From: Gammaproteobacteria bacterium
GTDB lineage: Bacteria; Pseudomonadota; Gammaproteobacteria; SZUA-152
Length of the DNA stretch: 33,926 nucleotides
Direction: 5' to 3'
Assembly (NCBI GenBank): GCA_021647505.1
Contig: JAKIUN010000005.1
Coordinates: forward strand, 1-33,926
The notes beneath the pieces were generated by a model. The model saw only the letters and a list, made by a program, of their open reading frames with translations. It made no database searches and was not told the origin of the DNA. Positions 1,813 through 11,831 of the stretch are shown here, in pieces. The position numbers and the translations under genes were made by a program. Numbering within the stretch: the first letter of the stretch is position 1; every line of letters begins with the position of its first letter.

Positions 1813-2535
1813 TCAAAGCAAATCAAATCTCACCGGTAAACGCAGTAACACCGCTACGGGCTCATTTTCTACTTCGGCCGGGTAAAAACTTGAGGCCAAA
1901 ATGGCGCGCCTGGCGGCCTCGTCAAAATGCTTCCCGGCGGACTTTAAAATATTGACCTTCCTCACTCGCCCTTCCTTATCGATTAATGCCTCCAGCTTGA
2001 CGACGCCGCTGATGCCCTGCGTGCGCATCGTTTCAGGGTAAACAGGAACCTCCCGGTGTAAAAAGCGCGGGGCCTGTGTGAGCTTGAAAATGGGCACGGG
2101 GTTTGGCAGCGCGTCTTCTGCCGGTTCGATGAGCATCGGTGGCGTGGGTTCGCTGAGGACGGGTTCAACTGTTTCATCGTTTTCTTCGACGATTTCCTCT
2201 GTGGTCTCATGCTCCTTAGGAGCCGGTAGTATCTCTTCCACAATTTTCTTTGCTTGAGGGGAAATTTCCGGCTCAGGAGGTGGCGGGGGCTTTTTCACCA
2301 CCGGTCTCTTGGGCATGGGTTGCTTCTCGGGTTTGGGTGGCGGGGCTTGCTTTTCCTGTTTTACAGGCATTGGCCATGCCGTCAGATCCACCACCAGCAG
2401 AGGGCGCGGCTCCGTGGCATGGGCGCGATAATTTGCCAGTACATTGATAAATAACAACAAGCCCAGGGTGACCAGAATGCCGCCTGCCATGGCGAGACCG
2501 ACATGGGGGAAGGCCCGGCTAGTCACGCTTTTCAT
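1813..2535 (-). CDS. tonB: Energy transducer TonB
   Basis: 240 residues from the ATG at 2535. An earlier in-frame start at 2589 would extend deep into exbD and is less likely. One membrane helix lies at about residues 12-32 (VGLAMAGGILVTLGLLLFIN), followed by a Pro/Lys-rich spacer with many PPP and KP steps that would span the periplasm. A TonB C-terminal domain of about 80 residues follows (YPETMRTQGISGVVKLEALI..., then KVNILKSAGKHFDEAA). It transmits proton-motive force from ExbB/ExbD to outer-membrane receptors. The start overlaps the exbD stop by 17 bases, so translation is probably coupled. It is last in the receptor-exbB-exbD-tonB operon and is probably dedicated to that receptor. Confidence 0.85.
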   Translation of the reverse strand: MKSVTSRAFPHVGLAMAGGILVTLGLLLFINVLANYRAHATEPRPLLVVDLTAWPMPVKQEKQAPPPKPEKQPMPKRPVVKKPPPPPEPEISPQAKKIVEEILPAPKEHETTEEIVEENDETVEPVLSEPTPPMLIEPAEDALPNPVPIFKLTQAPRFLHREVPVYPETMRTQGISGVVKLEALIDKEGRVRKVNILKSAGKHFDEAARRAILASSFYPAEVENEPVAVLLRLPVRFDLL

Positions 2536-2941
2536 CGGTGGCGATTCCCAGTTGCCGGGCTCCCCCGGCCTTTGCCGCATCAATGACATCGATCAACGAT
2601 TCAGTGGTGGTGCGGCGGTCTGCATGAATCGTGACGGCCAGTTGTGGTTTGCTGGCCAGTTCAATTTCAAGCAGCCGCTTGATGTCGTCAGCCGTCACGG
2701 GTCGCGCTTCCATATAGGCAATCCCTTGCCGGTCAAGCTTGATAATGACATGTTCATTATCGAGTGCGGCGGCATTTTCCGAGCTAGGCTTCTCGATGAG
2801 CAGACCATCGTTTTCCGGGAATACGGTCGTTACCATAAAAAATATCAACAGCAGGAAGACGATATCGACCAGCGGCGCCATGCTGATTTCGGGCTTTCCC
2901 GTATTGACGGCCGGCATAGGACATAGGTCATCTGTTGACAT
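2519..2941 (-). CDS. exbD: Biopolymer transport protein ExbD/TolR family
   Basis: 140 residues. A short cytoplasmic head is followed by a single membrane helix at about residues 21-40 with the family motif MAPLVDIVFLLLIFFMV; Asp26 is the expected proton-carrying residue. The periplasmic domain ends with the pattern IHADRRTTTESLIDVIDAAKAG typical of ExbD/TolR. It forms the proton channel with ExbB and energises TonB. The start overlaps the end of exbB by 14 bases and its stop overlaps the tonB start, so the three genes appear translationally coupled. An ATG at codon 9 is an alternative start. Confidence 0.88.
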   Translation of the reverse strand: MSTDDLCPMPAVNTGKPEISMAPLVDIVFLLLIFFMVTTVFPENDGLLIEKPSSENAAALDNEHVIIKLDRQGIAYMEARPVTADDIKRLLEIELASKPQLAVTIHADRRTTTESLIDVIDAAKAGGARQLGIATDEKRD

Positions 2942-3560
2942 TGTGATATGCCTTTTTCAATGTACTCACATCACGATGTAAAATGACCTGGATCGCTTGG
3001 TGCGTCATCGCCATTAAAATATTGATTCGACGTGATAACAGGTGGTGCAGAAAAATCACCGGAATGGCGATAATCAAACCACTGGCCGTTGTAAGCAGTG
3101 CCTGTGAAATGCCATCGGCCATTTCATCCGGCTTGCCGCTGCCGTGCAGTGCAATGACTTCAAATACATTGATCATGCCAGTGACGGTGCCAAGCAGGCC
3201 TAACATAGGGAGTAGCGAGGCAAGGATGGCGATGGTGGCAAGGCTGCCTTCCACCTTGGGTGTGATTTCCGCCAAATGAATATTGAACTCTCTGGCCATG
3301 TCTTCTCTTGATTGAACTTCTGACCAGTGGGTTGTGGCGAGTAATTGGGCAATAGGGCTCACGCTGCCATTTTCCACGGGCAAATAGTCGTCACTTGAGC
3401 GCAGTTTGTCGTAATCATGCCGGGCATTTTTTATTAGCTTTTGCCCGCGTAATGCCTCCCATAGCACCAGCGCCATGGCGATGCAGGCGACAAAAAAAAT
3501 GACCCACATAATAGGGCCGCCGCTATCCATCAAGGCCATAAAATCATAGTGAATATTCAT
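2928..3560 (-). CDS. exbB: MotA/TolQ/ExbB proton channel protein
   Basis: 210 residues with three membrane helices: about 15-34 (PIMWVIFFVACIAMALVLWE), about 108-130 (TIAILASLLPMLGLLGTVTG) and about 150-172 (ALLTTASGLIIAIPVIF). The stretch LLGTVTGMINVFEVIA and the QALLTTASGLIIAIP motif are the MotA/TolQ/ExbB signature. It forms the pentameric stator for the ExbD dimer in the inner membrane. It starts 4 bases after the receptor stop codon, so it belongs to the receptor operon. ExbB is more likely than TolQ because the neighbours are a TonB-dependent receptor and TonB. Confidence 0.88.
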   Translation of the reverse strand: MNIHYDFMALMDSGGPIMWVIFFVACIAMALVLWEALRGQKLIKNARHDYDKLRSSDDYLPVENGSVSPIAQLLATTHWSEVQSREDMAREFNIHLAEITPKVEGSLATIAILASLLPMLGLLGTVTGMINVFEVIALHGSGKPDEMADGISQALLTTASGLIIAIPVIFLHHLLSRRINILMAMTHQAIQVILHRDVSTLKKAYHNVNR

Positions 3561-3564
3561 TCTT

Positions 3565-5886
3565 CTAAAACTCCATTTCTACACCAAAGAAGGGAAAAAA
3601 TGACATGCCGGTAATTTCGCTGGGATTGTCAGTTTTTTCATATTCATCTCCATAGTCATACTCAACAATATTTCTGGCGAAGGTGATATTTTGCAGATCA
3701 AGATAAAACTTCATCTTCGAGTTATTAAACAAAACCTCGCGCCCGACACGGAGGTCGATTTTGTAGTAAGTGGGTAGGCGCTCAGCATTGTGCTCGCCAT
3801 ATTCAGCAATCCAGCGGCTGGTAGGGTCGTTGGGGTCTTCCCGGTGGCGGCCTGTTATTGCGGTATAGGGCCTGCCGGAGTTCGCTTGAGCTTTGATGCT
3901 CCAGTCCCAGCGCTTCCAGTTCCCACCAAAAGGCTGTCCCCACACGGCGGTCACGGTCAGTGGCTGGTCGCCGGAAAAATCACGCGTGATGCCGGTGATT
4001 TCATTGGTGCGACGGGATTTGGCCCAGGAGAGTGACAGCCAACCGATTTTTCCCTGGCTGGGGGTTCGCTTGATAAACAGGTCAAAACCATAGGCCTCAC
4101 CGCTGCCTCGGTTGGTGAAGTTGTCGGGGGGATCTTTCTCATCAAGGGCGATGACCAGGTTTTTCATGGGTTTGTGATAAACCTCTGCCTTGACACTGTA
4201 AAGCGGATTAATTTGATGTTCAATGCCCAGAATCCGGTGCTCTGCCTCTGTCATCAATAAGGCCGGATTACCAAAGGACTCAATGATCTCGCTGCCACGC
4301 GGCATTTGAATAAATTGGCCCCAGGTGGCCATCAACAGGGTGTCGGTTGTCAATTGATATTCCACCGTGGCGCGCGGTGAAAGTTTGTGGGTATGAAATC
4401 CGCCGGTGATTTCAATATTGGTATAACGCAAGCCAAGCTGGCTGGTCAATCGGTCTGTCCATTGTTGGCGGTATTTGATGTAGGGGGAAGCTTCGCTACC
4501 TTTAATCACTTTCTTCAGGCGATACTTCTTCTGTGAGGTGAAATCACAATCAGGATCACTTTCAGTACAGCGTCGGGGGGCATAGACATCCACAGGAATA
4601 TCTACGTAACTGCTGGAGAGGCCAAAGCTGAGTTGTGATTCTCCCTGTACCCGCCAGCGTAATTCTGGCTGTAGATGGATCTGGTTGCTTTCTGTACGGA
4701 CAAAAAAAGGCTTTCCCTGCTCATCACGACCGATACGCACTGAATTTTTCTCATGTAGGTAAGCCAGGGTTGAAAGGCTGTCCCATTTGCTGTTCCAGCG
4801 CTTCTGCCAGGTAAGGCCGGTGGTTTGATATTCTTTTTTACTACGCAATTCTCCGGCCAGTTGAGGGTCGGATTTGGCTGAGCTGCGCAGCTCCATCTCC
4901 ATGGCATCACCTGCGGTAAACAGATAAGCATCAAGATAGCCGTTGTCAAGCTGATGGCGATAGAGTGCCTGAAAGTCATAAAAACGCGGTACCAGCAACA
5001 CTTGATCCGGGTCACTTTCATCATCATCAGAAAACAGGTCAGTGGCGGCGCTGGGGGATAAGATCAGATCGATATAGCTGCGACGACCGGCAACAAAAAA
5101 ACTGTCACCGCTTTCTCCCGCCGGCCCCTCTGCCAGAAAAGAACTGGCGATGGTTGAAATATCGAATTTGTAATGCATGCGGTCATTTTTTGGCGGGCGT
5201 AATTTGACGTCGATCACACCGCCCAGGGCGTCGCCATACTGAACGGGAAAACCACCCAAAAAGACGTTAATATCTTCAACCAGTGCTGGATTGATTGTCG
5301 ATTGAAGTCCGCCAAAATGGTAAAGATAGCCGACGGGGGCATTGTTGATCCAGGTAATATTTTCATTGCCATCACTGCCTCGCATATAGACTTCCGCCGA
5401 ACCTTCTTCCGTGGGGGTGATTCCCGGCAGCGCCGCAATGGCCTTGAGAGGGTCTCCGCCACTGCCGGCAGCCCTGGTTAGCTCATCCACGGAAAGAGAC
5501 AGTTTCGATGTTTTTTCCGTCAGTCGTTCTGCGGTCACCTTCAGACCTTCGCCCTCAATGACAAACGGCACCAGATAGAGAACGATCTCTGCTTGCGTCA
5601 GTCCCCGGGTTTTAACCAGGGTTTCGAACCCTGCCGCCAGAACTTTGATTTGTTTAGGCGGTGAAATATCAGGAAATACGACACGCCCGGTTTCCGCCGT
5701 TTCGTCATATACGTCGCCATTATCAATAACAACGGTCGCCCCCTCAATGGGCTCACCGCTGCCCTTTTCTTTGACAATGACAGTCATGTCGGCAGCAAAA
5801 GCGGCCTTCATGCCGAATATGGCTATGATTAACAGGCTACCAAGGTGGCGTGCACTTAGGGAGCCATTTCTGACTGAAGTGCTCAT
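3565..5886 (-). CDS. TonB-dependent outer-membrane receptor with N-terminal carboxypeptidase-regulatory-like domain
   Basis: 773 residues. There is a signal peptide to about residue 31 (AFA-AD), then a beta-sandwich domain at about 33-110 (MTVIVKEKGSGEPIEGATV...) as in CarboxypepD_reg-like domains. A plug domain covers about 125-230 (LKAIAALPGITPTEEGSAEV, VYMRGSDGNENITWINNAPV, FGGFPVQYGDALGGVIDVKL-type motifs). The barrel runs to residue 773 and ends FFGVEMEF. A Cys pair in CTESDPDCDF may close an extracellular loop. It imports a ligand across the outer membrane using TonB; the ligand is unknown. AGGAGGGG precedes the ATG. It leads the operon receptor-exbB-exbD-tonB and is divergent from the Rieske/molybdoenzyme genes. 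Confidence 0.85.
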   Translation of the reverse strand: MSTSVRNGSLSARHLGSLLIIAIFGMKAAFAADMTVIVKEKGSGEPIEGATVVIDNGDVYDETAETGRVVFPDISPPKQIKVLAAGFETLVKTRGLTQAEIVLYLVPFVIEGEGLKVTAERLTEKTSKLSLSVDELTRAAGSGGDPLKAIAALPGITPTEEGSAEVYMRGSDGNENITWINNAPVGYLYHFGGLQSTINPALVEDINVFLGGFPVQYGDALGGVIDVKLRPPKNDRMHYKFDISTIASSFLAEGPAGESGDSFFVAGRRSYIDLILSPSAATDLFSDDDESDPDQVLLVPRFYDFQALYRHQLDNGYLDAYLFTAGDAMEMELRSSAKSDPQLAGELRSKKEYQTTGLTWQKRWNSKWDSLSTLAYLHEKNSVRIGRDEQGKPFFVRTESNQIHLQPELRWRVQGESQLSFGLSSSYVDIPVDVYAPRRCTESDPDCDFTSQKKYRLKKVIKGSEASPYIKYRQQWTDRLTSQLGLRYTNIEITGGFHTHKLSPRATVEYQLTTDTLLMATWGQFIQMPRGSEIIESFGNPALLMTEAEHRILGIEHQINPLYSVKAEVYHKPMKNLVIALDEKDPPDNFTNRGSGEAYGFDLFIKRTPSQGKIGWLSLSWAKSRRTNEITGITRDFSGDQPLTVTAVWGQPFGGNWKRWDWSIKAQANSGRPYTAITGRHREDPNDPTSRWIAEYGEHNAERLPTYYKIDLRVGREVLFNNSKMKFYLDLQNITFARNIVEYDYGDEYEKTDNPSEITGMSFFPFFGVEMEF

Positions 5887-6596: not shown

Positions 6597-7160
6597 ATGA
6601 CATCAAACAATGACAACATTATAGATATCAAAAAAGAATCTGAGCATCCAGAATCTGAACGTTTATGTATGACTAGAAGAAATTTTTTGCTGATGGGTGC
6701 CGGCACCATTGTCTTATCCACTATGCCGGGTATTGTTGCAGCCGTAAAACTAATAGCTAAAGACTATCCGCGCCAAGAAATCATTTCCTTGAAAGATCTA
6801 AAAAAAGATCAGCCCATAGATTTTTTGTACCCACCCAACAACCCGTCATCATCATTTTTTATTGTAAAATTGGACGAAGAAGCCGGAGGTGGTGTAGGGC
6901 CTAACAACGATATTGTTTCATTCAGTAATTTATGTAGTCATATGGGAGGCCCACTAAATGGTACTTATAAAGCAAGTCACAAGGCTATTGGCCCCTGCCC
7001 CCTGCATCTAACCACTTTTGATTTGACTCGTCATGGCATGGTGATTTCAGGTCACGCAACTGAAAGTTTGCCTCAAGCTCGTCTTGAGATTTCAGAAGGC
7101 CATATTTATGCCGTGGGAGTTACGGGTCTTATTTATGGTCAGCACGACAACCTGGCTTAG
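6597..7160 (+). CDS. Rieske [2Fe-2S] subunit, arsenite oxidase/iodate reductase small-subunit type
   Basis: 187 residues. A Tat-type signal lies at residues 25-48 (MTRRNFLLMGAGTIVLSTMPG; the twin Arg are 27-28), so either the first ATG or Met25 may be used. The Rieske ligands are C113-x-H115 (CSHMGG) and C134-x2-H137 (CPLH). The two extra cysteines that form a disulphide in classical Rieske proteins are replaced (Gly118, Leu136), as is known for some AioB proteins. It should pass electrons between the molybdenum subunit encoded next and a periplasmic carrier. The large subunit has no signal of its own, so this subunit probably carries it through the Tat pore as a folded pair, as in AioBA. No cytochrome gene is adjacent. 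Confidence 0.82.
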   Translation: MTSNNDNIIDIKKESEHPESERLCMTRRNFLLMGAGTIVLSTMPGIVAAVKLIAKDYPRQEIISLKDLKKDQPIDFLYPPNNPSSSFFIVKLDEEAGGGVGPNNDIVSFSNLCSHMGGPLNGTYKASHKAIGPCPLHLTTFDLTRHGMVISGHATESLPQARLEISEGHIYAVGVTGLIYGQHDNLA

Positions 7161-7174
7161 AGGATGTGAGATAT

Positions 7175-10096
7175 ATGAGCAAAATAAGCAAGCCGCATTA
7201 CATGCCTGAGGACAAAGTACCTTTACCTCCCACGGATGCAGAAATATTTACCACTGTCTGTGATTATTGCGTTACCGGTTGTGGTTATAAAGTGTATCGT
7301 TGGCCGGTAGGTAAAGAGGGTGGGCCAACAGCAGATCAGAATGCTTATGGCGCTGATTTTCCAGTATCTATCATGGCTGGTGTCTGGGCCAGTCCAAATC
7401 AACATAACATTGTGTCTGTAAATGGTAAGCCTCACCATGTCACGGTTATTGCTGATAATGAAAACCAGGGGCCTAACCTGGGAGGAGACCACAGTATTCG
7501 TGGTGGAACCATTGCGAAGAAATGTTACAACCCTGACACGCCCACTCGTGACCGCCTGCAATACCCTATGGTTCGTGTCAATGGCGAGTTGCAACGGGTA
7601 TCCTGGGATGATGCCATCGACATCATGGCAGAAGTCTCCAATCATGTGCTTGATAAATATGGCAAGTCTGCATGGGGTATGAAAATGTATTCCTATCAGT
7701 ACTGGGAAAATACCCACGCACTGACAAAGCTTGCATTCCAAGGTATTAAAACACCAGCCTGGGCCGTACATGATCAGCCTACCGGTCATGGTCCTGATAC
7801 ACCGGGAATGGCTGATGCTGGCATTGATAACTTCAGTCCGTGTTATGAGGACTGGAGTTTAGCTGATGTTTTGTTCATTGCAGGGACAGACCTGTTTGAG
7901 TCAAAAACCATTATTTTCAATGACTGGGTTCTTCCAGCAATTCGCCGTGGGATGAAAGTAATTTCTGTTGTCCCGCGCAAGACTACTGGCATTGCTTTTG
8001 CTGAAAAAAATGGTGGCCTATATCTGGAAATTAATCCCGGTACAGACACTCTATTGCTCCATGCCATCTCGAGAATCATTGTTGAAAATGGCTGGGAAGA
8101 TAAGGAATTTGTCAGTAAATGGATCAACAACCGTACTGAAGAGGATAATGAAGTTTTCCAGGCTGATGGTTTTGACGACTACAAGGAATGGATTGTTCGA
8201 TATAAATATGCCGAGCTAGACTATGTGGTTGAGAAAACCGGTATCCCTGCGGATAAAATCCGCTTGGCAGCTGAGTGGATAGCTAAGCCAAATGCAGATG
8301 GTACGCGCAAGAAAACTTCTGTCGGTTTCGAAAAAGGTCTTTACTGGTCAAATAATTACCTGGGTACAGCGGCCATTACAGCGCTTGGTTTGATTTGTGG
8401 TGCAGGTAATCGCCCTGGACAGGTGATTGGCCGTTTCGGTGGTCACCAGCGAGGCATGATGCCAGGAGGAAAATATCCGGCTGCTGAAGCACCAGAAAAA
8501 TTCCCTGGATGGAGAAAACAAGGTATTGATCTAGATCGTTGGGTTGAAGATGGTCGTGCTAAATTTGTCTGGGTCGTTGGCACAACCTGGATCCAAGCTT
8601 CACTGGCCTCAGATCACTTGAGCAGTGTGCTTAAAAAACTGACTCGAGGAAATCCGCATCAGCCAACCAGCCTCGATAAGCAGCACATTATTGATACGTT
8701 CAAAAAACGTGCAGATAGTGGCGGAATGGTATTGGTTGATCAGGATATTTATCCAGTCAAACCGATTGGTACTGAGCATGCGGATATCGTACTACCTGCG
8801 GCGACCTGGGGTGAAGAAAATTTCACCCGCGCCAATGGTGAGCGTCGCATCCGTCTTTATGAGAAATTTTATGACTCTCCTGGAGAGTCATTGCCTGACT
8901 GGAAAATTGCGCAGAAGTTCGCCAAGCGCATGGGTTTCTCAGGTTTCGATTGGAAAGATAGTAACGAAGTATTTGAAGATGCTGCATTCTTTAATAAGGG
9001 TCGGCGTACCAGTTATGTAGCTTTGGTTGAATATGCCCGTGCGCATGACCGTAAAGCGCACGATGTGCTGCGCGAAATGGGCACCACTGGTATTCAAGCA
9101 CCAGTTCGCTGGGAAGATGGCAAACTGGTAGGCACCAAACGGTTACACGATTCAACGCTGAAAACTGGTACGCCTCATGGCCTAACGGTAATCAATCCCG
9201 GGTGGCTACGTAAGTTCAAGACCAAGACAGGCCGCGCGAATCTGCTGAAGGCGCCGTGGGAAATGTTTATGGATTACTGGGAATTCATGAAGCCAGAAGG
9301 TGATGAGCTTTGGGTTACCACGGCCCGGATTAATGAATTTTGGCAATCTGGTTTTGATGACCAGATGCGCCGACCATATCTACAACAGCGCTGGCCTGAC
9401 AACTTCCTAGAAATTCACCCAGATGATGCCAGGGCTCGCAAAATCGAAAGTGGTGACCTTGTACATATATCACATAACAGGATTCCCATTGAGGTGGGTG
9501 GCTACAGCAACTCCGAAGAAGATAAGAAAGTTCGCGGAATTATTCCTCTGCACGCCAATGCGGATCAAGAAACACCTGATTTGCTACAGCAAAGTGTGGA
9601 TGATAATTATACTGGTTCAAAAGGCATTGCGGCTCGTACCATGGATGATGATTCCTTGGAAATAGATGATGAACTGATGAGATTCAGTGATTCCAACATT
9701 TCTCCCAGCGAGAAAAATCATATACCCATGAGCCCTGATCTAGAAGAAAAAGACCCAATCATGGACAACCTGGAGTCTGCCATTGGTCTGAGCTGGGAGG
9801 ATGTCAAGCCTATGACATTTTCAGAAATGCAGAAAAATGGCTACGTCAAATATGTTAGCGCCAGTTTTGAAGCTGTGGCAATTGTGACAGAAAATATAAA
9901 AAAAGGTGTCACGTGTAGTTACTTTAATTTGCCTTCGGGTAAGGGCTCGGCTAATTCACTCGCAGGTCGCATACTCGACCCGATCAGTCAGCGCCCACGC
10001 TTCAAGCTGGCCCGCGGCAGCATTAAAAAAATTGGCGAGTCGAAATACAAGCATTCTTTTGCAGCCATGAGTTTTAAGTCAAGAGCGATACTGTAA
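7175..10096 (+). CDS. Molybdopterin oxidoreductase, AioA/IdrA-like large subunit
   Basis: 973 residues from the ATG at 7175, which has AGAGG at a fitting distance; the GTG at 7166 is too close to that site. Numbering below counts from that GTG. The N-terminal cluster motif is C32-x2-C35-x3-C39 (CDYCVTGCGYKVYRWP), close to arsenite oxidase, which holds a [3Fe-4S] cluster. A Cys120 occurs where AioA has none, two residues beyond the place of its Ser. R423-F-G-G-H427 matches the Arg/His active-site pair of AioA, but the AioA stretch with its other active-site His and Glu is replaced by a Pro/Gly/Asp-rich segment (about 205-225). The cofactor-binding segment TEHADIVLPAATWGEENFTR and the C-terminal SFKSR also match the family. 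The protein is longer than AioA (about 825 residues), mainly through an acidic insertion at about 781-897. The substrate is unknown; calling it arsenite oxidase would be too strong. Confidence 0.8.
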   Translation: MSKISKPHYMPEDKVPLPPTDAEIFTTVCDYCVTGCGYKVYRWPVGKEGGPTADQNAYGADFPVSIMAGVWASPNQHNIVSVNGKPHHVTVIADNENQGPNLGGDHSIRGGTIAKKCYNPDTPTRDRLQYPMVRVNGELQRVSWDDAIDIMAEVSNHVLDKYGKSAWGMKMYSYQYWENTHALTKLAFQGIKTPAWAVHDQPTGHGPDTPGMADAGIDNFSPCYEDWSLADVLFIAGTDLFESKTIIFNDWVLPAIRRGMKVISVVPRKTTGIAFAEKNGGLYLEINPGTDTLLLHAISRIIVENGWEDKEFVSKWINNRTEEDNEVFQADGFDDYKEWIVRYKYAELDYVVEKTGIPADKIRLAAEWIAKPNADGTRKKTSVGFEKGLYWSNNYLGTAAITALGLICGAGNRPGQVIGRFGGHQRGMMPGGKYPAAEAPEKFPGWRKQGIDLDRWVEDGRAKFVWVVGTTWIQASLASDHLSSVLKKLTRGNPHQPTSLDKQHIIDTFKKRADSGGMVLVDQDIYPVKPIGTEHADIVLPAATWGEENFTRANGERRIRLYEKFYDSPGESLPDWKIAQKFAKRMGFSGFDWKDSNEVFEDAAFFNKGRRTSYVALVEYARAHDRKAHDVLREMGTTGIQAPVRWEDGKLVGTKRLHDSTLKTGTPHGLTVINPGWLRKFKTKTGRANLLKAPWEMFMDYWEFMKPEGDELWVTTARINEFWQSGFDDQMRRPYLQQRWPDNFLEIHPDDARARKIESGDLVHISHNRIPIEVGGYSNSEEDKKVRGIIPLHANADQETPDLLQQSVDDNYTGSKGIAARTMDDDSLEIDDELMRFSDSNISPSEKNHIPMSPDLEEKDPIMDNLESAIGLSWEDVKPMTFSEMQKNGYVKYVSASFEAVAIVTENIKKGVTCSYFNLPSGKGSANSLAGRILDPISQRPRFKLARGSIKKIGESKYKHSFAAMSFKSRAIL

Positions 10097-10210: not shown

Positions 10211-10660
10211 ATGAAAAATCAAAAACCAGTCTGTTTTTTAGTCGCACTATTCTTCACCATACATCATGGTGTAGCAATGACTGAAGATGAAGTAAACATA
10301 AACCTAGCAGATGATATAGAAATGCCGGATACGTTGTTGCAAACAACTGATCCGGAAAAACAAAAAAACCGTTATAGAGAAGAGGAAATTGTCATCTCCG
10401 AAGACGGCGCCAAGGATAGTGCCATTGTCAAGCCAGATCCACTTGAAGCTGATTTTGACGATAAAGAAAAAAAATCTGACACGTCGAAAGATATCGAACT
10501 GAAGTCAGAAGGCGTCACAAAAGAAAATAAATCCATCGAGCACCCTGATCGGTTATTAAAAACAACCAAGGATAAGAGTGATATACAAAATAACAATAAC
10601 AAGCAAAGTCCGTATGACGACCTGGAAATTCCTGACCCTTTGTTGGATAACATAAATTAA
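10211..10660 (+). CDS. Small acidic secreted protein with repeated PD-x-LL motif (unknown function)
   Basis: 149 residues; I do not recognise the family. Residues 1-22 look like a signal peptide (MKNQKPVCFLVALFFTIHHG...VA). The remainder is strongly charged, rich in Asp, Glu and Lys, with no Cys after the leader and no obvious folded domain. Three spaced copies of a short motif occur: IEMPDTLLQTTD, IEHPDRLLKTTKD and LEIPDPLLDNI, the last ending the protein; VKPDPLEADF is a weaker fourth. It lies 114 bases after the molybdoenzyme and 103 before the porin, all on one strand, with AGGGAG upstream of the ATG. It may be a periplasmic linker or binding partner for neighbouring proteins, which is inference only. 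Confidence 0.65.
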   Translation: MKNQKPVCFLVALFFTIHHGVAMTEDEVNINLADDIEMPDTLLQTTDPEKQKNRYREEEIVISEDGAKDSAIVKPDPLEADFDDKEKKSDTSKDIELKSEGVTKENKSIEHPDRLLKTTKDKSDIQNNNNKQSPYDDLEIPDPLLDNIN

Positions 10661-10763: not shown

Positions 10764-11831
10764 ATGATGAGGAAATTTGCTGTTCCACTCGCTATTGGGT
10801 TATCACTGAGCATATCTAGCGTGCCTGTTTTGGCTAAATCAACTATTGGGGGTATCGTGTTTTTAAATACGTATGTCGATGATTCGACAGATAATCTGAC
10901 GCTGGCCAACGCGGGAAATTCTCGTTTGCGAATTAAATGGTCAAATGAAGATAGCGTCAGCATGTATTATGAATTCGCCATAAAAGGGGGGGGTAACAGT
11001 GTGCGTCATGCCTATGGTAAATGGGATTTCAGTGAAACTGGACAAATTTTGGCAGGTGTGACATCAACACCCTTTGCGCCACTGAACCCGTCTGTAGCCA
11101 TGGTTAACAATTCCGGCAATGGGTATGGCAATGTGAACCCTGGTCGTCCCTCTCAGATCCGTTATACCTATAAGTTTTTAAATCGTAATGGCGCGCTGGC
11201 ATTTGCCTTAATTGACCCCAATGCAGGTGGTGAAGTGGCAGGTGGGACAGGGATTAGAAAAAGCTCATTACCTCGTCTTGATGTCGGTATGGCATACAGA
11301 ACCTTTAATTGGCAAATATTCCCTAGCCTATATGTCCATAAGCAGAGTTTTTCTGATGGATATGATTCGCTAATATCGAGTGCGTTTGCGCTGGGTTTCA
11401 AGACAGCTAGAGGCCCGTTTACTCTAAGCGGGGAAATTGGTTCAGGCAAGAATTGGGGTAATACCAAAATGTCTGTGAGCGGTTCAACAAACTCTACAGC
11501 GGGTGCACAGGCAGTTGCTTTGTATGCGGGTACCAGCAAAAGTAAAGACGTTGACAACATGGGTTACTGGCTTGATGTGGGTTACCGCTTTACTGGAGGG
11601 GAAACCAAAGGCTCTGTTCACTTCATTTATGGCAGTATGAGTAGCGAAGCGGGCGCTGGTGTTGACTCCGAAAGCAGTATGCTGGGCATCAGTGTGCCGA
11701 TTGATCTGCCTTACATTGCTCGTGGATTCCGTATTCGTCCAGAGCTATTTACCTTTACGGATAAAGACAATGTAGCAAATACAGATCGTGATCGTACCAT
11801 TGCAGGTGTTCAGCTCCAATTTACCTTCTAG
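10764..11831 (+). CDS. Outer-membrane porin of the molybdoenzyme cluster
   Basis: 355 residues. Signal peptide at about 1-24 (MRKFAVPLAIGLSLSISSVPVLA). The mature protein is a run of amphipathic strands, including RLRIKWSNEDSVSMYYEFAI, with Gly/Ser/Asn-rich loops, and it ends GVQLQFTF with a terminal Phe, as expected for a porin-like barrel. GAGGTGA precedes two adjacent ATG codons (10764 and 10767). It is not obviously similar to the porin at 472-1482. Its position after the Rieske/Mo genes suggests that it admits the substrate or releases the product of that enzyme, but this is inferred from context alone. Confidence 0.75.
   Translation: MMRKFAVPLAIGLSLSISSVPVLAKSTIGGIVFLNTYVDDSTDNLTLANAGNSRLRIKWSNEDSVSMYYEFAIKGGGNSVRHAYGKWDFSETGQILAGVTSTPFAPLNPSVAMVNNSGNGYGNVNPGRPSQIRYTYKFLNRNGALAFALIDPNAGGEVAGGTGIRKSSLPRLDVGMAYRTFNWQIFPSLYVHKQSFSDGYDSLISSAFALGFKTARGPFTLSGEIGSGKNWGNTKMSVSGSTNSTAGAQAVALYAGTSKSKDVDNMGYWLDVGYRFTGGETKGSVHFIYGSMSSEAGAGVDSESSMLGISVPIDLPYIARGFRIRPELFTFTDKDNVANTDRDRTIAGVQLQFTF

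Follow-up and report, generated by a model that had tools for sequence, protein, structure and literature searches.

A rare sister branch of bacterial iodate reductases encoded in a four-gene cassette without IdrP1/P2

We describe here a rare, previously unnoticed branch of Rieske/molybdopterin enzymes, which the phylogeny of their sequences well supports as sister to the bacterial iodate reductases. Its representative is encoded in the window, i.e. the whole stretch of 33,926 nucleotides of a gammaproteobacterial contig that was analysed. Sequence comparisons strongly support its assignment to the IdrBA type, i.e. with iodate reductase and not with arsenite oxidase (AioBA), and a conserved four-gene cassette without IdrP1/P2 is likewise well supported. 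We give roughly even chances to the reading that this enzyme reduces an oxyanion in the periplasm, probably iodate or else another oxyanion of a halogen, and is served by a dedicated anion porin.

The gene pair

The pair comprises an IdrB-like Rieske [2Fe-2S] subunit of 187 aa with a Tat signal (motif TRRNFLLMGAG; 6597..7160, + strand) and, after a spacing of five bases, an IdrA-like molybdopterin catalytic subunit of 976 aa without signal peptide (7166..10096, + strand). Both ORFs exceeded the cut-off of their respective family models (TIGR02694: 115.9 bits for a cut-off of 95.65; TIGR02693: 453 bits for a cut-off of 359), and domains PF18465, PF00384 and PF01568 were found in the large one. 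The AioBA/IdrBA architecture recognised in a preliminary description of this DNA, i.e. a Tat-signal Rieske subunit followed by a signal-less large subunit, was thus confirmed. So were the CxxCxxxC motif of the [3Fe-4S] cluster (C32, C35 and C39; 7259..7282, + strand) and the Arg-x-Gly-Gly-His segment (R423-GGHQ, followed by Arg429); a serine (Ser110) takes the fourth cluster position, which is also the case in AioA and IdrA. Neither a CxxCH gene nor an IdrP-like gene was found within the window, in agreement with the earlier statement that no cytochrome c or IdrP-like peroxidase gene is adjacent.

For both subunits, the best sequence matches among solved structures were arsenite oxidases (E 5e-28 for the Rieske ORF against PDB AioB sequences). 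A structure prediction, a check proposed at the outset, was made for the large subunit with AF2 (mean pLDDT 75.6). This model, too, matched arsenite oxidase structures best (Z 38-39, with about 760 residues superposed at about 2.5 A), followed by formate dehydrogenases and nitrate reductases (best Z 30-35) and by perchlorate reductase (Z 24), these solved-structure matches including no IdrA. Likeness to AioBA (PDB 1G8K, 4AAY, 8CFF) extends to the fold (Z 39), to the [3Fe-4S] plus Rieske architecture and to the His/Arg/His substrate residues, whereas sequence identity is only about 30 %, Asp replaces Glu203 and GGHQ-Arg replaces GGHQ-Glu in the window clade. The Rieske subunit of the window also differs in lacking the CxHxGC...CPCH cysteine pair of most AioB; its motif, CSHMGG...CPLH without the disulfide cysteines, is the same as in the IdrB rows of the alignment.

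Phylogenetic placement

The final tree was inferred from 39 rows under LG+C20, "IdrA" denoting homologues that group with IdrP-linked loci (the characterised IdrA of strain SCT and Denitromonas were not included). AioA was separated from the window clade plus IdrA with a support of 100/100, the window protein falling on the IdrA side. The window clade was recovered at 97/93, and all 23 IdrP-linked IdrA formed one group (99/96), to which the window clade was sister. Nesting inside IdrA, for which a first tree had left the branching order open, was rejected on this basis. The separate clade of unassigned substrate put forward in the preliminary description therefore stands: the protein was not placed inside the AioA or IdrA clade with all substrate residues in place. 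Concordantly, when the 23 IdrP-linked IdrA rows were compared with 11 AioA-side rows, 42 diagnostic positions were common to the window protein and IdrA and absent in AioA, against none shared uniquely with AioA.

These counts bear on the possibility that the enzyme is an arsenite oxidase in function, its IdrA-like residues being incidental. The name of NCBIfam TIGR02693 and the rank of AioA among the solved structures, where no IdrA was matched, speak in its favour; the absence of any residue shared uniquely with AioA, the Asp at the Glu203 position and the Arg after GGHQ speak against it, and no arsenic gene was present among the window ORFs with a Pfam match. We regard this explanation as improbable. 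The window pair passed both TIGR02693 and TIGR02694, but the name of the former does not discriminate AioA from IdrA: an Azonexus plasmid carries an IdrA that is IdrP-linked (L032, 7983-10661) and yet bears the same product name, "arsenate reductase (azurin)".

Several further homologues were encountered. Two loci (L057, 4034-6529, and L058, 7436-9928) represent an AioA-side clade with a GGHQEA motif, whose identity with the window protein is about 35-40 %; one genome (G249) has both this type and a canonical IdrA. A partial homologue from Chloroflexi (L031, 7-2049), which lies at a contig end and is followed by a MobA-like gene, fell on the IdrA side of the first tree, its exact position there being uncertain, and the final tree was built without it; it possibly resembles the Dehalococcoidia outgroup named in PMC8692401. 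No relative was found on viral contigs.

Active site

Two segments of the large subunit were examined in the alignment, i.e. the loop H202-DQPTGHGPDTPG-M215 (7769..7810, + strand), invariant in the six aligned members and found also in L096, and R423-F-GGHQ-R429-G (8432..8455, + strand), whose Arg429 is of the IdrA type. We take the substrate residues of AioA to be H195, E203, R419 and H423 (A. faecalis numbering). The equivalents of His195, Arg419 and His423 (H202, R423 and H427) are kept in all clade members, and the Glu203 equivalent, Glu in every AioA row and mostly Ser or Asp in IdrA, is Asp in the window clade, which consequently reads H, D, R, H in place of His, Glu, Arg, His.

Between H202 and G214, all clade members have the HDQPTGHGPDTPG loop, with Thr206 at the Mo-ligand-equivalent position, an inserted Gly207 and then a clade-specific His208. 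The Thr206 position is where other superfamily enzymes bind molybdenum; its equivalent is Ala in most AioA and Ser or Ala in most IdrA. Twenty-five positions are exclusive to the clade, six of them in the two active-site segments (Q204, T206, G207, H208, M215 and P433).

The altered active site of the preliminary description was upheld in part. The segment near residues 205-225 had been considered replaced; three of the four substrate residues are in fact intact and Asp occupies the Glu203 position, but T206, the inserted G207 and H208 are indeed specific to the clade. Arg rather than Glu does follow GGHQ, yet this is the ordinary state of IdrA, found in 22 of the 23 IdrA rows as well as in the window clade. 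Cys120, singled out for its vicinity to the cluster, was dismissed as a distinctive residue because it is common in canonical IdrA and replaced by Val in one clade member. Most features of the supposedly altered AioA site, i.e. the lost acidic Glu and GGHQ-Arg, are hence ordinary IdrA features, being shared with the IdrA rows. What truly sets the clade apart is the one-residue insertion with Thr/Gly/His by the Mo-ligand-equivalent position, a C-terminal insert that is predicted disordered, and a conserved operon that includes a new barrel of the outer membrane and the small protein with repeated motifs.

The four-gene cassette

Two cassette genes (10211-10660 and 10764-11831) and the insert at residues 781-882 had escaped the preliminary description. 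The gene order Rieske subunit, large subunit, small exported protein and outer-membrane barrel was found in every member with flanking sequence on both sides, in Gammaproteobacteria as well as Campylobacterota. The cassette is complete in L025, L026, L027, L028 and L096; in one Methylococcaceae genome it is divided between two contigs, L030 and L094, which were taken as carrying one split gene. Its genes overlap in an operon-like manner: the overlap is a single base in L094 and a few bases in L096 and the two Sulfurimonas-like loci (L027 and L028). Comparison of the closely related L027 and L028 gave dN/dS values of 0.05-0.32 across all four genes, which indicated purifying selection.

Additional genes were observed around the cassette. 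The Methylococcaceae locus has a monohaem cytochrome c gene directly after the barrel gene (L094, 2639-2935), a candidate electron carrier. In L096, the Rieske subunit (4495-5358, - strand) is fused to a C-terminal AMIN domain, a possible anchor of the enzyme to the cell envelope and in keeping with a link between the two. In the window itself, TonB, ExbD, ExbB and TonB-dependent receptor genes (1813-5886, - strand) lie divergently from the cassette and were rejected as a part of the system, as they were not found at related loci; a phosphate-selective-porin-like gene is located at 472-1482.

The small exported protein (149 aa; 10211..10660, + strand) occupies the same position in L025-L028, L094 and L096 and had no Pfam or NCBIfam match and no match among solved structures. 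It contains four PDxL[LE] motifs, one of them near the C-terminus; two to four motifs were found in most members (one in L094), one of them generally at or near the C-terminus. Similar PDxLL-like motifs occur in the C-terminal insert of the large subunit (residues 781-882; 9506..9811, + strand), which spans 90-106 aa in the C-terminal domain of all complete large subunits, is absent from the IdrA rows aligned and is predicted to be disordered (pLDDT < 50 at residues 780-869, AF2). Each insert, along with shuffled versions of it, was scored with a matrix derived from the small proteins of all members but the one concerned. Four of the six members had an insert that beat its shuffles (p 0.0002 to 0.03; the other two not significant), the best site often lying at offset 23. 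The four significant inserts scored 13.3 to 15.7 bits, and 0 of 211 background segments reached at least 12 bits. In L096, the insert has STPDPLESIV and the small protein ends in STPDPLLDEI. These sequence patterns point to PDxLL as a docking motif that the insert and the small protein would share.

The last gene encodes a putative outer-membrane beta-barrel of 355 aa (10764..11831, + strand), with partners 44-59 % identical at the same position in related loci. None of five barrels had a Pfam family at E up to 5, and searches against solved structures gave chance-level matches only. A barrel profile searched against 369 genomes of the class gave strong matches only in two cassette genomes and very weak ones (E 5e-4 and 9e-4) to two DcaP-like porins, of which one was verified to belong to PF19577. 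DcaP was also the top structure match of a model built from five sequences, whose pLDDT of 40 makes such fold matches hints only. These weak similarities suggest an anion porin distantly like the DcaP-type channels (PDB 6EUS, PF19577), from which the barrel differs in having no Pfam match (PF19577 included), no visible N-terminal coiled coil, and a strict linkage to the window-type enzyme in the genomes searched.

Distribution and peroxidase context

The window type was found in seven genomes, i.e. the host, OB6 (Gammaproteobacteria), DT_4 (Alteromonadaceae), two Sulfurimonas-like bins, a Methylococcaceae bin and the genome of L096, which is from the family of L028. It is present in one of 24 genomes in the host order, one of 54 in the OB6 family and two of 151 in the L028 family, a rare and scattered distribution that suggests horizontal transfer.

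Iodate reducers have been described with the gene order idrP-idrP-idrB-idrA (PMC8692401, PMC10989891), and the published view ties iodate respiration to the idrABP1P2 set (PMC8692401, PMC8801600). IdrP homologues stood beside every IdrA-type locus with enough flank; no idrP1/idrP2 was found at window-type loci, nor were IdrP1/P2 orthologues elsewhere in the cassette-only genomes searched. In these genomes (OB6, DT_4, the two Sulfurimonas-like bins and the Methylococcaceae bin), nothing closer than general cytochrome c peroxidases, of 33-40 % identity, was found. As for earlier mention of IdrA in Sulfurimonas or of an IdrP-less clade, the literature searched yielded only a clade labelled unknown and two outgroups, Halorubrum and a Dehalococcoidia bacterium (PMC8692401).

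The host also has a second homologue, 50-53 % identical to the window protein, on contig C83 (L009, 4347-13991), where a canonical idrP-idrP-idrB-idrA cluster is accompanied by an 802-aa cytochrome c/ethylbenzene-dehydrogenase-like protein. This homologue adjoins two di-haem cytochrome c peroxidases (PF03150) and multihaem cytochromes, and the host itself is predicted to be an iodate reducer because of the canonical cluster. The window pair might then be a redundant iodate reductase paralogue using IdrP1/P2 of contig C83 in trans. We consider this very unlikely, given that the five cassette-only genomes have the window-type enzyme only, together with their general peroxidases.

Discussion

The system is best compared with IdrBA accompanied by IdrP1/IdrP2, as in Pseudomonas sp. 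SCT and Denitromonas (PMC8692401, PMC8801600). Common to both are the Rieske plus molybdopterin pair, the IdrA-type residues, Ser at the fourth cluster position and a Tat signal on the small subunit only, and the window protein is about 50 % identical to the IdrP-bearing homologues compared. By contrast, the window clade is a sister and not a member (99/96), is without IdrP1/P2, and has the insert, the HDQPTGHGPDTPG loop, the small PDxLL protein and the barrel.

Our reading of the enzyme as a putative oxyanion reductase draws on the tree, the 42 versus 0 diagnostic residues, the IdrB-type Rieske subunit, the cassette, the linkage of the barrel, the dN/dS values, the L094 cytochrome and the DcaP links. 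In this model, the heterodimer would be folded and then exported by the Tat system, and the substrate, most likely iodate or some other oxyanion of a halogen, would enter the periplasm through a dedicated anion-type porin. A cytochrome c would donate electrons, by way of the Rieske [2Fe-2S] cluster and the [3Fe-4S] cluster, to the bis-MGD molybdenum, which, probably having no protein ligand, would take oxygen off the substrate. The PDxLL motifs of the disordered insert and of the small protein would probably dock both on one shared cell-envelope partner. Oxidant by-products might be dealt with by ordinary cytochrome c peroxidases, or harmful amounts might never be formed. Counting against this reading are the published tie of iodate respiration to idrABP1P2 (PMC8692401, PMC8801600), the canonical idr cluster already present in the host, beside which a second iodate reductase looks redundant, and a porin assignment derived from weak similarity and a poor model.

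A substrate differing from that of IdrA (selenate or selenite, arsenate, an organic oxide, or iodide or antimonite as a substrate to oxidise), with the loop setting specificity and the porin being dedicated, is quite possible in view of the changed loop and of the lack of IdrP in cassette-only genomes, and we see it as a serious though less probable alternative. T206, G207, H208, Q204, M215 and P433 are clade-specific and invariant in the aligned members, the barrel is a specific partner, and the clade branches beside the IdrP-bearing IdrA as their sister instead of within them; as far as sequences tell, T206, G207 and H208 together with the missing IdrP1/P2 could signal another substrate. Conversely, every substrate-contact residue kept by IdrA is kept here too, the cassette holds no substrate-specific resistance or transport gene, and the likeness to anion porins fits many oxyanions. 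Bolder, and in our view rather unlikely, is a new class of respiratory or detoxifying molybdoenzyme that branched before IdrA gained its peroxidases, acts on a substrate new to the AioA/IdrA family and is coupled through PDxLL to its own channel.

Conclusions

Automatic models name such enzymes arsenite oxidase, an annotation trap. In one survey, the IdrA search score was tuned to exclude peroxidase-less genomes (PMC8692401), a rule under which the window clade would drop out. Being excluded in this way and sitting at the AioA/IdrA split, the clade offers a natural test case for the need for peroxidases, for which activity came first and for how substrate choice beside molybdenum is set. It would thereby provide a way to test the origin of iodate breathing and which other compounds the family is able to respire.
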